Shown: piece by piece, positions 1 to 56,003 of the stretch
How positions within the stretch are numbered: the first letter of the stretch is position 1
How the letters are laid out: each line of letters starts with the position of its first letter
Virus record (IMG/VR): IMGVR_UViG_3300047276_000715
Span: 1 to 62,480 of that record
From: a virus
Length of the DNA stretch: 62,480 nt
Reading direction: 5' to 3' (one strand)
Notes under the pieces: model-generated
Database searches by the model: none
Told to the model about the DNA's origin: nothing
The model's input: the letters and a program-made list of their open reading frames with translations, nothing else
Program-made: the position numbers and the translations under genes

Positions 1-1
1 T

Positions 2-211
2 GCTGCTGTTGCTGCTGCTAATGCTGCTTGGGCCGCTGCTACTGCTGTTGATGCTGCTCGGGCTGCTGTTGATGCTGCTGATGATGCTGCTGCTGCTGCT
101 TGGGCTGCTGCTCGGGCTGCTGCTGCTCGGGCTGATGCCCGCCTGCGGCAGCGCGACCTGCTGCTGCGTTTGATTGCTGAAGCTCCTGTTGTAGAGAACA
201 CCAATGATTGA
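2..211 (+). CDS. Alanine-rich hypothetical protein, 5' truncated
   Basis: An open frame enters from the left edge and stops at 209-211. The visible 69 residues are an alanine-rich repeat with Trp, Arg and Asp every few positions (AAWAAARAAAARADAR), then a charged end (RLRQRDLLLRLIAEAP). Such AAxAAxAA tracts with a short charged tail are seen in uncharacterised phage proteins (known by resemblance, not function). The GCT-rich DNA makes this stretch a trinucleotide-like repeat. The stop overlaps the next start by 8 bases, so the two genes are probably translationally coupled. The start lies outside the window. Confidence 0.6.
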   Translation, partial: AAVAAANAAWAAATAVDAARAAVDAADDAAAAAWAAARAAAARADARLRQRDLLLRLIAEAPVVENTND

Positions 212-33549: not shown

Positions 33550-34950
33550 TTAGCGCCAGCGCTGTCCACGATTCATCCCGATGCCAGGACGCGGCATAGA
33601 CTGCCAAACCAAATAACGCAAGGCGTCGCCAAAGTGCGAGAAATCTCTACTACCACCCTTGGCGGGTCGCAAGGTGTTGTCATAGCCCCAGCTTTCCATC
33701 ATCTCAATCACGTCATGACAAGTAGATGGATTGATAAGTATCTGTCCACGATGCAAGCAATTGTTCGTGTGTGAAACAGTTTCTGCAACGGGTGGGTTTC
33801 GGCGTTCTGCAATCACCTTGCATCCTGCTTCACGCAAAATATCGTGATCACTCATGGTTGAAGAAGTGCTGGCGTGTGAACCAGAGCTATCCGGGTAAAC
33901 GACAACCATCCCCTTCGCCAGGTGTATCGGGAAGCGTCGCTTGATGTGCTCAGCAAGAGCGAATGTATCTCTGCAAAGAAATTCCTCAAAGACATGCAGT
34001 TGCTGCCCTTGCGGTGACTGTCGCATGACTGAGTAAACGCTAGAGCTTTTGCCAACGTTGAAGTCACACCCGATAAGCACTGGTTCGTTCTGTTCTGCAT
34101 GAAACACGCTTGTAACGTGCTTCTCTCGCATAAACTCGGAGAAGACGGTTGCGGTTTCAAGGTTGACGAACAGGCCCTTGATGTAGGCATCAGCAAGATG
34201 CTGTGGGTAGTTTGCAAGAAGGTCTTTGACGTAGTTTTCATCAAGGTGCGGGTTCTGCCTTGTGTCTGCTCTATAAATCGCTTTGTCATCTGTTTTATTC
34301 TTCTCAAAGAAGTTCCAAACAAACTTACGACCTTCTGGCGTAGATGCGAAGCAAATTTGAGGACACTTGCCAACGCGAACACGACCTTGCAGTTTGATCA
34401 ACGCAGCTTCTGCAATTTCTTGCTTAACAGTGTCAGCTTCGTCAATAACAAGCGACGCAGCGTTGATACCCACCAATCGCTCAACGTTCATCAAGGGGCG
34501 AAGGAGGATGGTTGTTTCTCCTTTCGGAAGATGCAACGTAAAGCTCGGTTGAGGTGAAATCCTCATCGAGTACGGAATATCGTACTTGTCAAGCAGTTTT
34601 GTCCATGTAGGAATTGCGATGTCATTCAACATCACATAAGTAGGTTCAAGATAAATATGAAACTCACCTTGACTGCGAAACGCAAGAAGAATCGCTTTAG
34701 CAACACTGCTGTATGACTTCCCACTACCAAGGCCTCCGACATAGAGAACATATCTTTGTTCCCAGTTGCAAACAAAATCACGTTGATGCGGGAGCAGATC
34801 AGCAAGGATTCTCGCCTCTGCTGCGTCAACATCAAATCTTGAGTTTGTTCGTGCTCGCAATCTCTTGATTGCTGAGTTTGCCTCAAACAGCCCAAGCCCT
34901 TGCAATGACGCCCTGTCTGCGTATTTTCCGCTACGTGATTTTGCTGGCAT
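33550..34950 (-). CDS. Terminase large subunit
   Basis: 466 residues. The ATPase half has Walker A GGLGSGKS (72-79) and Walker B LVIDEAD (167-173); the nuclease half has the first acidic strand IGCDFNVG (Asp296), VVYPDSSG and HFGDALRYLV (Asp442). It pumps DNA into the prohead and cuts it. Unlike in many phages, the small subunit is not next door: the best candidate is at 39148-39891, across a repeat region. GCTATAGT lies 22 bases upstream of the start. Confidence 0.93.
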   Translation of the reverse strand: MPAKSRSGKYADRASLQGLGLFEANSAIKRLRARTNSRFDVDAAEARILADLLPHQRDFVCNWEQRYVLYVGGLGSGKSYSSVAKAILLAFRSQGEFHIYLEPTYVMLNDIAIPTWTKLLDKYDIPYSMRISPQPSFTLHLPKGETTILLRPLMNVERLVGINAASLVIDEADTVKQEIAEAALIKLQGRVRVGKCPQICFASTPEGRKFVWNFFEKNKTDDKAIYRADTRQNPHLDENYVKDLLANYPQHLADAYIKGLFVNLETATVFSEFMREKHVTSVFHAEQNEPVLIGCDFNVGKSSSVYSVMRQSPQGQQLHVFEEFLCRDTFALAEHIKRRFPIHLAKGMVVVYPDSSGSHASTSSTMSDHDILREAGCKVIAERRNPPVAETVSHTNNCLHRGQILINPSTCHDVIEMMESWGYDNTLRPAKGGSRDFSHFGDALRYLVWQSMPRPGIGMNRGQRWR

Positions 34951-37025: not shown

Positions 37026-37619
37026 TTATTTTTTGGCAGCCTCAACAGTAGATTCTGCGGCAAATTTAGCACGTCCTAGGGTGATTTTAACGTTGGCAAT
37101 TTTCGTATACTTGCCGGCTTCCTCAGTCATTTTGATGCCGGGGATTTCTAAGTATTCCCCTTTTACAATAACATCGCGACACAAATCAAAGGTCAATTTT
37201 TTGGCAATTTGTGACGTGGATTTGTTAGTTGTGTCGTGAAAATAGCCGAGATTGAAACTAACGTGCAGCGCGCACAAATCAACTAACGCAATTCTTCCTT
37301 TGTTTTGTGCTGCCAGGCTGATAATGCAACAACGAAAATAGAAATTTGCCTTGATTTTTCCAGCCGAGAAATCATCGCTGGCTGAACGAGGATTTGCCCG
37401 AATAGGAAAATCGACCGGGGCGCTTGATTTTTTATCGGGATGAGTTAATTTTGAAGTAGTTTCAGCGTAAATCAAGCCGGACACATTAAAGGCATTTTGT
37501 GTCATTTCCTCCAGCTTAAGAAATGCAGGATTTACCTTTGCAATTTGTTCGCTGGATTTCCGCATTTCGGAAATTTCAGCAGCAATTTGGTCAAATTCGG
37601 AAAAATCGAAAGAGGTCAT
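37026..37619 (-). CDS. Hypothetical protein, 197 aa
   Basis: Helical N-terminus (FDQIAAEISEMRKSSEQIAK), a beta-rich centre with KANFYFRCCIISLAAQNKGR and a C-terminus with CRDVIVKGEYLEIPGIK. It has its own promoter (37668-37696) and a strong terminator, so it is a single-gene unit next to the repeat arrays. No family recognised; a DNA-binding or replication link is only suggested by position. Confidence 0.62.
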   Translation of the reverse strand: MTSFDFSEFDQIAAEISEMRKSSEQIAKVNPAFLKLEEMTQNAFNVSGLIYAETTSKLTHPDKKSSAPVDFPIRANPRSASDDFSAGKIKANFYFRCCIISLAAQNKGRIALVDLCALHVSFNLGYFHDTTNKSTSQIAKKLTFDLCRDVIVKGEYLEIPGIKMTEEAGKYTKIANVKITLGRAKFAAESTVEAAKK

Positions 37620-37667
37620 TTCTGGAATTTGCGGTTTGGCGGCGATCCGGTTTGATCGCTTGAGCCC

Positions 37668-37696
37668 ATTATGGCACCGATACGCCAGCCTTGCAA
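37668..37696 (-). promoter_or_regulatory. Sigma-70-like promoter with leader hairpin
   Basis: Minus strand TTGCAA (37691-37696), 17 bases, CATAAT (37668-37673). The leader then folds as GCGATC, AAACCG, GATCGC. It drives the 197-residue gene. Confidence 0.55.
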
Positions 37697-37777
37697 GTCC
37701 TGACCGATCAGCTTAACTTATCATTATCGGGCGTGCCACCTGAAGATACTTTCAATTTGTGTTGCAAATAAAACAAC

Positions 37778-37881
37778 GATTGCTATTTTACACTTAGCAA
37801 CTTACTAAATAACATTTAGCGATTGCTGTTTTACATTTAGCGATTGCTGTTTTACATTTAGCGATTGCTGTTTTACATTTA
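37778..37881. repeat. 21-bp tandem direct repeats
   Basis: Three perfect head-to-tail copies of a 21-bp unit at 37819, 37840 and 37861 (core CGATTGCTGTTTTACATTTA), with a diverged copy starting at 37778. The minus strand reads it as a heptapeptide repeat (LNVKQQS), but no complete gene with a start is convincing. Non-coding repeats are the simpler reading. Confidence 0.85.
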
Positions 37882-37972
37882 GCAATTTAGCATTGAATTT
37901 ATAAATAAAATTAAATCTAGGTTCCAGGAATTTACACCTTAAAATAGCGGTAGATTTTGCAGGTTGGCAACC

Positions 37973-38090
37973 ATGAAAGGCAACCTGGCAACCATGAAAG
38001 GCAAGTAACCTGCAAAATGAAAGGCTTGGTGACAATAATGAAAGGCAAAATGAAAGGCACGCGGCAACAATGAAAGGCAAAATGAAAGGC
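37973..38090. repeat. Array of seven ATGAAAGGC repeats
   Basis: ATGAAAGGC occurs at 37973, 37994, 38017, 38038, 38050, 38070 and 38082; an eighth copy lies at 38341. Spacings are 21, 23, 21, 12, 20 and 12 bases, close to one or two DNA turns, so a protein could bind copies on the same face. Each copy also looks like a start codon followed by Lys-Gly; the longest small frames are 11-18 codons. Confidence 0.85.
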
Positions 38091-38139
38091 CAGGCGCACC
38101 TAAAATAGGCTTGAATCTAGAAGGTTGTGGCAATAAATA

Positions 38140-38350
38140 GACCGTGAAAGTACGGTTTCCATGCCTAAACTATACCTTGAAAATACAGGTTTCACCAACA
38201 AATAGACTATGAATGGCGAATTCAAACAAGGCAAATGGCCTATGAATGGCAAATTTAGGCGAGGCAAACAATCTATGAATGGCAAAATCATACAGGGCAA
38301 ACAATCTATGAATGGCAAATTTAAGTAAAGCAAATAATTTATGAAAGGCC
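38140..38350. repeat. 33-bp direct repeat array
   Basis: Five units with exact 33-bp period have cores ATGAATGGC at 38209, 38242, 38275, 38308 and ATGAAAGGC at 38341. Two more diverged units precede them near 38144 and 38177. Units share GGCAAACAATCTATGAATGG as their best-kept part. In the plus strand the array reads as 11-residue repeats (MNGKFRRGKQS) in a 39-codon frame 38209-38328. It lies directly downstream of the RepL-like gene and near the small terminase gene, so an origin or a packaging site is possible. Confidence 0.88.
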
Positions 38351-38356
38351 AAATAA

Positions 38357-38551
38357 CTAAACCTCTTCAAAATAAGCGTATCTACCAAACGTCACTCCCG
38401 ACTCATCAGTGAATCTTCCTATGAAAATTCTGTCGTAGGGAAAGTGTTCATCTGCTGGTATGAATGGTTTAAGCGGACCGGAATCTTGAATGTTATTTTT
38501 TAGGATTTCACGAATCCTCTGTTTCTTCTCTGTTTTTGATAGGCGGTCCAT
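38357..38551 (-). CDS. Hypothetical protein, 64 aa
   Basis: Starts at ATG 38551 (MDRLSKTEKKQRIREILKNN), overlapping the RepL-like gene by 44 bases in another frame; an upstream start at 38593 would increase the overlap. The N-terminus is a basic helix, the rest beta-rich (YDRIFIGRFTDESGVTFGRY). It ends 7 bases from the repeat array. Function unknown; a replication accessory role is inferred from place only. Confidence 0.5.
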   Translation of the reverse strand: MDRLSKTEKKQRIREILKNNIQDSGPLKPFIPADEHFPYDRIFIGRFTDESGVTFGRYAYFEEV

Positions 38552-38897
38552 AAAATCTATCAGGGCGAGACGGAGAATAAAGTGTTTCCTCATTCCAGAG
38601 TTTAACCCTGAATCTTCGTAAATGCAACTGACCCTGATAACAATAAAGAGGATTTATCATGTATCCTTCTTTGCCATTGTAGCAAACTTTCTTGATAATG
38701 TCTAATTTTCTTAGTTTTGCAAGTCTCCTGTATGTATTTGTTGAATGGGTTTTTGCGCTAAAAAAGTCCGCAATTTCTTTTTCAGACTGTCCAGAAAATC
38801 CCCATTGAATGCACATTTCTAGCAAATAAGCAAAAATTAGCAGTTCAGAACCTGAGATTCCAGACAGCAATAGAGCCCTGTAGCAAGACTGGGACAC
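38508..38897 (-). CDS. RepL-like winged-helix protein
   Basis: 129 residues from GTG 38897. The first 85 residues form a likely winged helix: GSELLIFAYLLEM, SEKEIADFFSAKTHSTNTYR, RLAKLRKLDIIKKV, then NGKEGYMINPLYCYQGQ. The last part, a wing strand followed by YMINPxxxxxG, is a mark of plasmid RepL-type initiators. The C-terminus is basic. Adjacent direct repeats could be its iterons. It could instead be a transcription regulator with the same fold. Confidence 0.5.
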   Translation of the reverse strand: MSQSCYRALLLSGISGSELLIFAYLLEMCIQWGFSGQSEKEIADFFSAKTHSTNTYRRLAKLRKLDIIKKVCYNGKEGYMINPLYCYQGQLHLRRFRVKLWNEETLYSPSRPDRFYGPPIKNREETEDS

Positions 38898-39147
38898 GTG
38901 AGACAGGCCCTCAAAATCAGTGTAATTTTAACACCCGGAAATTAAGACCCAAGGTGAGAATCCCTGTCCACCACTCAAATGGACGGCAAAAAAACAAATC
39001 TTTGAGAAAAGTAAACTCCTTGGTATGACATGAGACTCAGGGGGTCGCGAATTTTCCCCTTAGGGGTATGGGGATCAAAAAAGGGGCCTCAGCAACGGGT
39101 CCACCGCCGCCGAATTTCCCCTCCCAAGCAATCTTTGCAATTAACAA
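38898..39147. other. Intergenic region with small hairpins
   Basis: No gene seen. It holds a GTCCA/TGGAC inverted repeat (38966-38988), and a CCCCTTAGGGG hairpin near 39056-39066 followed on the minus strand by AAAATT, a weak terminator candidate for the small terminase gene. Confidence 0.4.
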
Positions 39148-39891
39148 TTACTCATCAAAATCTGTTTCTTCTAATGCAACTAACAATTGCTCAACACCTA
39201 AAGCACCGCTCTGAAGATTCTTGCCAACTTCAGCAATCTTTGCAGCGCTGTTAAGTATTGATGGAATGTCCCTGATGTCAAGCTTACGTTCTTCTTGCAA
39301 ATACTCATCTAAAGTTTTCTGTGATAGTGCCGCAAGTTTTGCAGCATTGGCAGATAAGTTTCTACCAAGAAACTCTTGCTGTAATCTATACTCCTCCAAG
39401 CGCTTTTTATGTTCTATCGCTCGTGATTCTTGCTCTAACTTTAGTTTCTCTTGCAATAAATCAATGTCATAGTCGCTTGCACGTTCCTTCCAGTAATTCT
39501 TCTTTGCAATTGTATGTAATCGCGATTCTTGTAAATTAAATGTCGCAGCGACATACGGGATTGATCTTCCCCCACCACAGTTCAGATAGAAGTTGAAGAT
39601 GTGAAATTCTTTTTGGGTTTCGGAGGTAGCGCCGCCCTGCATGTGAGCATAAGATTTTACAAATAGGGTATTGGAGTTGAGAATTGCATCTGGGGTGTAT
39701 TGCGCGAACGGTTGAGAATTATTATTTTTTTTCACGATAGAGTCTTCTTGAGTAAATTCATTATCTGTTTCGTATTCTTCATTGTAAGTAAGCTCAGGTC
39801 CTTCTTCGTAATTTTCATTAAAGACAGAATTAGATTCTTCTTCGTAATTTTCATCAAGGATGGGATCAGACATTGCGATGTGAGAATTCAT
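39148..39891 (-). CDS. Terminase small subunit-like DNA-binding protein
   Basis: 247 residues. After an acidic N-terminus made of near-repeats (DENYEEES, NENYEEGP, NEEYETDN), residues about 95-135 are a helix-turn-helix of the small terminase kind: FHIFNFYLNCGGGRSIPYVA, LQESRLHTIAKKNYWKERAS. Next comes a long charged helix (EHKKRLEEYRLQQEFLGRNL), fit for oligomer formation. Small terminases bind the pac or cos site and load the large subunit. It lies 4.2 kb from terL with the repeat arrays between. Assignment is by fold pattern and may be wrong if the protein is another HTH regulator. Confidence 0.6.
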   Translation of the reverse strand: MNSHIAMSDPILDENYEEESNSVFNENYEEGPELTYNEEYETDNEFTQEDSIVKKNNNSQPFAQYTPDAILNSNTLFVKSYAHMQGGATSETQKEFHIFNFYLNCGGGRSIPYVAATFNLQESRLHTIAKKNYWKERASDYDIDLLQEKLKLEQESRAIEHKKRLEEYRLQQEFLGRNLSANAAKLAALSQKTLDEYLQEERKLDIRDIPSILNSAAKIAEVGKNLQSGALGVEQLLVALEETDFDE

Positions 39892-55031: not shown

Positions 55032-56003
55032 ATGGCTGAGTTCAAGAGTCAGTATCCATTCGTCGCATTTCCTTCTTGGATACTTAAAAAGCAAATTGAA
55101 ACACCTGACTGGCTTTCTTCAAAGGAAATTGTCGTCTTACTTTCACTGCAAAGCTTTGCGGATGGAATGAAAGAAGATCAGGGCGTCTATCCGAGCATTG
55201 AGCGACTGTGCGCAATGACAGGAATTTGCAAGCGAACAATCATCGAGGTAATGAAAACCCTTCAGGAAAAAGGACTAATTACAAAGTCATCTCGGTACAA
55301 GGATGGCGAAAGAAAGACCAATCTCTACACACTGAAAATATGGAATTACAGCTCTCCTTTTGAAAATAACCTCGAAAACCAGGGGCTCGAAGGGGGTCCA
55401 GAGCAAGGTGCAGGATCTGCACTTAGGGGGGAGCCTAGGTGCAAAAATCGCGACCCTAAGTGCAAAAATCGACCGTTCTTAGGTGCAGGAGATGCACCTA
55501 AACAAGAACCATTGAACAAGAACCAAGAAGAAGAACCAGAAGGCGCCAGGTCGGCCATCCGGCCCACCCTGCCTCCCTTGGGTTGTAAAAATAAAAATAA
55601 GAAATTAGATCCAAAAATTTTGCCTGAGCTTCCAGTGTATGCAGAGCCGTATCGCGGCTACCTTCAAGACTGGTGGACCTGCAGGTATCTTGTCCATAAG
55701 CAACGAGCAACACAAGTGCTAACAAAGCAAACTGTGTCTGCTCTTGAACTTGCCAGACAGCTTGATGTGCTTAAAGAATTTTGCGAGCACGCCTCAACAA
55801 AGTCTTGGGTTTCTCTTGGATTTGCTGGTTACACTGATTACATACAAAAACTTGCTAAAGATAAAAAGTTTGTACCTGGAGGACAGAACAGTTATTTTCA
55901 ACCACGCCCTCCTGTAAACATGGAAACTCATCCTTCGTATCGCCCGCTTGCAATTGATGAAGTTAGTGAATGCGGAGGCGAAGATGGAGGCTTCTCGTTC
56001 TGA
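55032..56003 (+). CDS. Replication initiator / replisome organiser with HTH
   Basis: 323 residues. The N-terminal 90 residues are an HTH_36-type winged helix: WLSSKEIVVLLSLQSFADG, YPSIERLCAMTGICKRTII, then KTLQEKGLITKSSRYKDGER. Residues about 125-185 are low complexity and polar, and the DNA for this part holds a cluster of repeats (55405-55502) like the origins inside lambda O and other initiator genes. The C-terminal part (residues about 200-275, WWTCRYLVHKQRATQVLTKQ) would load DnaB, whose gene lies 93 bases downstream. GGAGG is present before the start. Confidence 0.78.
   Translation: MAEFKSQYPFVAFPSWILKKQIETPDWLSSKEIVVLLSLQSFADGMKEDQGVYPSIERLCAMTGICKRTIIEVMKTLQEKGLITKSSRYKDGERKTNLYTLKIWNYSSPFENNLENQGLEGGPEQGAGSALRGEPRCKNRDPKCKNRPFLGAGDAPKQEPLNKNQEEEPEGARSAIRPTLPPLGCKNKNKKLDPKILPELPVYAEPYRGYLQDWWTCRYLVHKQRATQVLTKQTVSALELARQLDVLKEFCEHASTKSWVSLGFAGYTDYIQKLAKDKKFVPGGQNSYFQPRPPVNMETHPSYRPLAIDEVSECGGEDGGFSF
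55405..55502. repeat. Iteron cluster, candidate replication origin
   Basis: Six copies of TAGGTGCA or TAAGTGCA in about 100 bases: the pair AGGTGCA / TGCACTTA at 55406-55424, CCTAGGTGCAAAAATCG at 55434, CCTAAGTGCAAAAATCG at 55455, and a perfect 9-bp inverted repeat TTAGGTGCA/TGCACCTAA with a 5-base loop at 55479-55501. Direct and inverted copies lie inside the initiator gene, where lambda-type phages keep their origin. Confidence 0.75.

Follow-up and report, generated by a model that had tools for sequence, protein, structure and literature searches.

Packaging start sites are known in few phages and are seldom predictable from sequence. In the headful phage P1, the pac site consists of short repeated words in the region of the small terminase subunit (TerS) gene, and Dam methylation plays a role in its use. 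Late promoters of the TP901-1 type are controlled by a regulator gene together with repeats upstream of the promoter. The HTH of SF6 TerS has been reported to be non-sequence-specific. Repeats at pac are already known: the headful pac region of SPP1 has them, as direct repeats, at the gene for its small terminase (PMC4737164). A further origin of SPP1 is located in an intergenic stretch of the late region (PMC6316719). Jerseyvirus has been reported as headful with pac (PMC10783031). The phage described below has Jerseyvirus as a distant relative group by its large terminase subunit (TerL).

The window (the whole stretch of 62,480 nucleotides analysed here) is a 62.5 kb virus record of a cyanophage-like tailed phage, encoding TerS, TerL, portal, head and tail proteins, a sigma factor, ThyX and a DnaB-type helicase, with several of these gene names assigned by reading the ORFs. 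A non-coding stretch of 737 bp (37620-38356) houses three families of repeats, and minus is the coding strand for every neighbour of this gap. The minus-strand order is TerS, a terminator-like hairpin, a winged-helix (wHTH) gene, orf78, a word array, a 21-bp array, a promoter, g197, a methylase gene and TerL. The features are:

33550..34950, minus strand: TerL gene
37026..37619, minus strand: g197, the first gene past the array; in relatives the slot holds homologues or other variable genes
37668..37708, minus strand: putative promoter of the late operon, TTGCAA-N17-CATAAT immediately preceded by the box ATCGGTCAG
37777..37887, minus strand: distal array of the 21-bp unit GCGATTGCTGTTTTACATTTA, about 5.2 degenerate copies, three perfect at 37819-37881
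37973..38090, minus strand: seven copies of ATGAAAGGC (minus-strand reading GCCTTTCAT), start spacings 21, 23, 21, 12, 20 and 12
38144..38349, minus strand: 33-bp word array, five words spaced exactly 33 bp apart (38209-38349) plus two degenerate units upstream
38357..38593, minus strand: orf78, a small ORF overlapping the wHTH gene
38508..38897, minus strand: winged-helix (RepL/O-N-terminal-like) protein gene, one of three divergent types in this slot
38898..39147, minus strand: terminator-like hairpin and wHTH gene control region, including CCCCATACCCCTAAGGGG at 39056-39073; the interval varies with wHTH type
39148..39891, minus strand: TerS gene (PHROG 6299, E=1.2e-15)
55406..55500, plus strand: four iterons, a candidate replication origin, within an O-like initiator gene (55032-56003)

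A sequence-only reading had placed three families of direct repeats in a gene-free region flanked by a RepL-like gene, a small-terminase-like gene and a promoter. All three families are present at the coordinates it gave, and the gap contains short ORFs only, all of them within repeats and with no counterpart noted in relatives. The TerS-like gene and the promoter-like sequence are likewise both present, the latter as TTGCAA-N17-CATAAT at 37696-37668 (minus strand), and a comparable box/-35 block is found in most relatives. The winged-helix gene is there too, while its RepL label holds at the level of the fold only: the window protein had no match to the RepL profile PF05732 at the curated score (one relative reached E=0.095, below the cutoff), and fold searches returned only generic winged-helix matches, those to TubR being weak. 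GTDB genomes yielded no type-1 wHTH relatives. Weakly related TerS proteins occur in the Synechococcus phages S-CBS2 and S-CRES1-3; a low-confidence predicted model of the window TerS shows short helices followed by long helices, and a fold search with that model gave no useful match. The best matches of TerL among phage records are cyanophages. As a separate observation, the C-terminal part of orf78 matches a small protein of L013 (L013:11189-11470), L015 and L030 despite their differing wHTH types.

The words of the 33-bp array are four copies of ATGAATGGC and a last ATGAAAGGC, read on the minus strand as GCCATTCAT and GCCTTTCAT, respectively, with the degenerate units near 38144 and 38178; together with the seven-word family they form the wHTH-proximal array. 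In minus-strand reading, GCC[AT]TTCAT occurs 12 times in the 737-bp gap against 0.012 expected (mean of 500 dinucleotide shuffles, maximum 1). The proposal that spacings near 10.5 and 21 bases put the copies on one helix face did not hold, as the 12 words gave R=0.26 at 10.5 bp and peaked at 10.8 bp (R=0.89), and such phasing is not conserved in relatives, in which words lie mostly 13, 9 or 4 bp apart (R=0.03-0.36 at 10.5 bp). An Rfam search for structured RNA in the region gave no match. By eye, the window 21-bp unit contains AGCGATTGCT (37819-37881), and the distal arrays of close relatives (L009:3156-3890 and relatives) hold TAGCNNNNGCTA-like dyads, for example TAGCAAATGCTA.

Relatives of TerL and TerS were gathered by protein searches, and 16 TerS-relative loci, two of them near duplicates (L009 and L016), were compared; a search of phage records for close isolates by DNA match found none. 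The order of TerS, wHTH gene, array (0.6-0.95 kb) and next gene is kept in all 16. Repeat units vary by locus, including CATTCATTCAT tracts, 17-bp TATTTGTTATTTGCAAT units and (TTATAG)51 in L080, and the window array has the word core alone in common with the arrays of its relatives. In nearly all loci, CATTCAT-type words in a single orientation start at the stop codon of the winged-helix gene, with L014, where proximal words are almost absent, as an exception. An unbiased count put ATTCAT and CATTCAT at the head of the 6- and 7-mers shared among arrays, with at least three copies per array in 13/15 and 11/15, respectively. CATTCA reaches 24 copies on the TerS-sense strand of the arrays and 0-1 on the opposite strand, against roughly even strand counts genome-wide. 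The check proposed with the sequence-only reading, to look for the array at the same place in related phages, found one in nearly all of them; absence of the repeats from close relatives had been named among the refuting conditions, and the exact units are indeed absent while an array with a CATTCAT-type core is kept in place, which is no refutation. In S-CBS2 and S-CRES1/3, TerL follows TerS directly and leaves no room for an array, and the annotation of S-2L has only small genes ahead of TerL. In L027 a 267-aa HNH-endonuclease-like ORF lies between wHTH gene and array (L027:1193-1996), perhaps a homing insertion.

Among the neighbours, TerS alone stays with the array. Array similarity followed TerS identity (Mantel r=0.74, p=0.0005; partial correlation 0.70 with wHTH held), a correlation that shared ancestry or linkage could also yield; it did not follow wHTH similarity (r=-0.05, p=0.6), and the values for TerL and the next gene were 0.28 and 0.24. 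The interval upstream of the wHTH gene follows wHTH type with TerS held (partial r=0.33, p=0.0025) whereas the array does not (partial r=-0.13), indicating that the wHTH gene is probably a mobile cassette with its own control region. The two are dissociated in both directions: L018 and L019 differ in wHTH type and have similar arrays (0.67), and L018 has almost the wHTH protein of L020 (normalised score 0.95) but a dissimilar array (0.06). One binding protein had been proposed for the second and third families. A single reader is plausible given their common word, which recurs elsewhere too; the RepL-like protein is probably not that reader because its three divergent types are swapped with the array unchanged, and it was rejected as a candidate on this covariation. 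The oriented word survives TerS divergence down to 47%, while distal arrays are replaced; in L025 and L026 they differ beside TerS proteins that are 99% identical.

The word was also found in a second phage line. A DNA-only scan of all viral contigs with the word alone as query returned eight loci with three copies of GCCTTTCAT, and in 8/8 a distant TerL in the same orientation follows 1.4-2.1 kb further on. The arrays set in where the gene for a 196-aa protein bearing an HTH-like stretch reaches its stop codon (this gene is cut by the contig edge in L095 and L097). By position and HTH the protein looks like a TerS; its family has no profile match, and no homology to the window TerS was detectable. 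Given that the eight loci encode nearly the same protein, we count them as one independent case. Relatives of this protein, 30-61% identical, are encoded in L105, L106, L110, L111 and L123, with GCCATTCAT and/or CATTCATT arrays at the gene's stop, and several members of the line have a second array next, followed by small genes and TerL. Most other CATTCATTCAT matches lie away from TerS (L100-L104, L107-L109, L112-L118, L120, L121 and L124), and CATTCATT tracts also occur at other positions in other phages. In another phage line, 39-bp CATTCATT tracts stand directly after small-gene stops (L104:3155-3194, also L103 and L112), with TerL 4.5-5.5 kb away on the opposite strand. A pattern scan of bacterial genomes returned 112 scattered stretches with three-copy ATGAAWGGC arrays, which serve as background for the frequency of such short tandem words; the argument therefore rests on position more than on the word.

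Comparison of these sequences leads us to read the array as the packaging-initiation (pac-type) region of a headful-packaging phage, with a probability of roughly 45%. Because relatives and an apparently unrelated line keep such an array at this place, it would most likely mark a start of packaging and not of copying; of the roles offered beforehand, packaging site is favoured and origin disfavoured. A pac site is expected within the small terminase gene or beside it, and the array is found there in the 16 loci and at the TerS-like stop of the second line, although in the window the wHTH gene intervenes. We infer that TerS binds, and headful packaging starts, at the array: TerS, or a factor acting with it, would recognise the tandem words, and TerL would be loaded there, so that packaging would proceed through TerL and the head genes with a polarity given by the direct-repeat orientation. 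The variable distal array may provide spacer or cutting ground, and the winged-helix protein would not be the main reader. Long contigs of relatives run uninterrupted across the array and end elsewhere at variable positions, and the G007 contig closes as a circle with a 127-bp overlap; thus no fixed genome end is seen at the array, which is compatible with permuted genomes and no proof of them. A cos site was considered and rejected, fixed cohesive ends being at odds with contigs continuous across the array.

The likeness to the SPP1/SF6 pac lies in direct repeats at the small-terminase gene; however, SPP1 pac covers promoters and the start of the TerS gene, whereas the window array is longer, two-part and downstream of both TerS and the winged-helix gene. 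With P1 pac it shares short repeated words in the TerS region, although the word differs; Dam methylation has its role in P1, whereas we noticed no GATC in the window words, although a D12-like methylase gene lies nearby. Against the pac reading stand the near lack of proximal words in L014 and the change of distal array under an almost unchanged TerS in L025/L026. Moreover, direct reading of the word by TerS is not obvious, since TerS-like proteins with different HTHs adjoin the same word. If the function is confirmed, what would be new is a two-part array behind TerS, with a persistent word and a second part that changes freely, seen again in another phage line. Being searchable by pattern behind TerS, the word array offers a testable packaging-start signature in cyanophage-like genomes, which are mostly metagenomic, and the natural swap series among relatives offers a route to its reader. 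A broader idea, which we regard as doubtful, is that GCC[AT]TTCAT serves, in tandem behind TerS, as a signal for the start of packaging or of the late phase in apparently unrelated lines, with a common reader (a host protein or convergent TerS) and a second array free to change.

The main and close rival, though we would not expect it to be correct, is a late-promoter operator or enhancer array, in which the words would be bound by a regulator, of phage or host origin, that sets the moment at which TerL and the structural genes are switched on. In the window, as in most relatives, the array ends distally at the putative promoter, whose -35 is preceded by a box. The array also parts TerS, followed by the terminator-like hairpin, from the late operon, and in the second line inspection by eye shows promoter-like sequence after the arrays and ahead of the next gene. 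However, the promoter is some 280-650 bp away from the words, and the arrays differ greatly in length, unit and spacing. The arrangement of regulator gene and repeats recalls TP901-1-type control, but the neighbouring regulator here does not covary with the repeats, though its own upstream interval tracks it.

Less probable again is that the arrays are simple repeats that evolve fast at a gene junction prone to recombination and have no specific reader. Units turn over completely between close relatives, slippage generates CATT microsatellites, the flanking genes on both sides are exchanged, and the 112 bacterial stretches show that such three-copy arrays occur in many bacterial genomes. By contrast, such repeats would not account for one oriented word persisting to 47% TerS divergence while distal arrays are replaced, nor for the near-complete strand bias and the retention of arrays in nearly all loci.

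A replication origin read by the RepL-like or O-like protein is quite improbable, even though a RepL-like winged-helix gene adjoins direct repeats and AT-rich DNA and SPP1 oriR sets a precedent for an additional origin between late genes (PMC6316719). The iterons sit in the O-like gene and change with the N-terminal domain of O: three iterons of the form GTGCA-N5-TGCAC occupy the corresponding spot in G002 and G003, and G001 and G007 have a different O N-terminal domain and different repeats there. O iterons, the cognate sites expected at an O-type origin, were sought in the array and none was found, paired GTGCA/TGCAC sites being confined to the O gene. The array is independent of O type, as G001 and G002 differ in their O N-termini and have similar arrays (0.82; rows L013 and L015), and repeats of a RepL-type iteron origin would change with the initiator, against which stands the double dissociation of L018, L019 and L020. 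An O-dependent second origin at the array was rejected for lack of shared iterons. The replication origin is likely formed by the iterons inside the O-like gene, away from the array; compared with lambda ori and SPP1 oriL-oriR, these candidate iterons would follow the lambda pattern of an origin inside the initiator gene. Between G001/G007 and G002/G003, the O DNA-binding domain and iterons have been exchanged together and the C-terminal part of O kept. In S-CRES1 and S-CRES3, a DNA replication protein gene stands beside tandem dyad repeats (L033:1042-1168 and L032:816-885), for example GTGGACAAGGTGTCCACAAAA in 5.8 copies, which are likely origins.

Least probable of all is a DNA or RNA decoy for a host factor, since a word common to apparently unrelated lines would suit a shared host reader but no host factor, known motif or Rfam match was identified and the location beside TerS is left unexplained. 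Finally, at the start of the record (window 1-127) a TGC-type unit of 3 bp is repeated some 42 times, possibly coding or an assembly edge.
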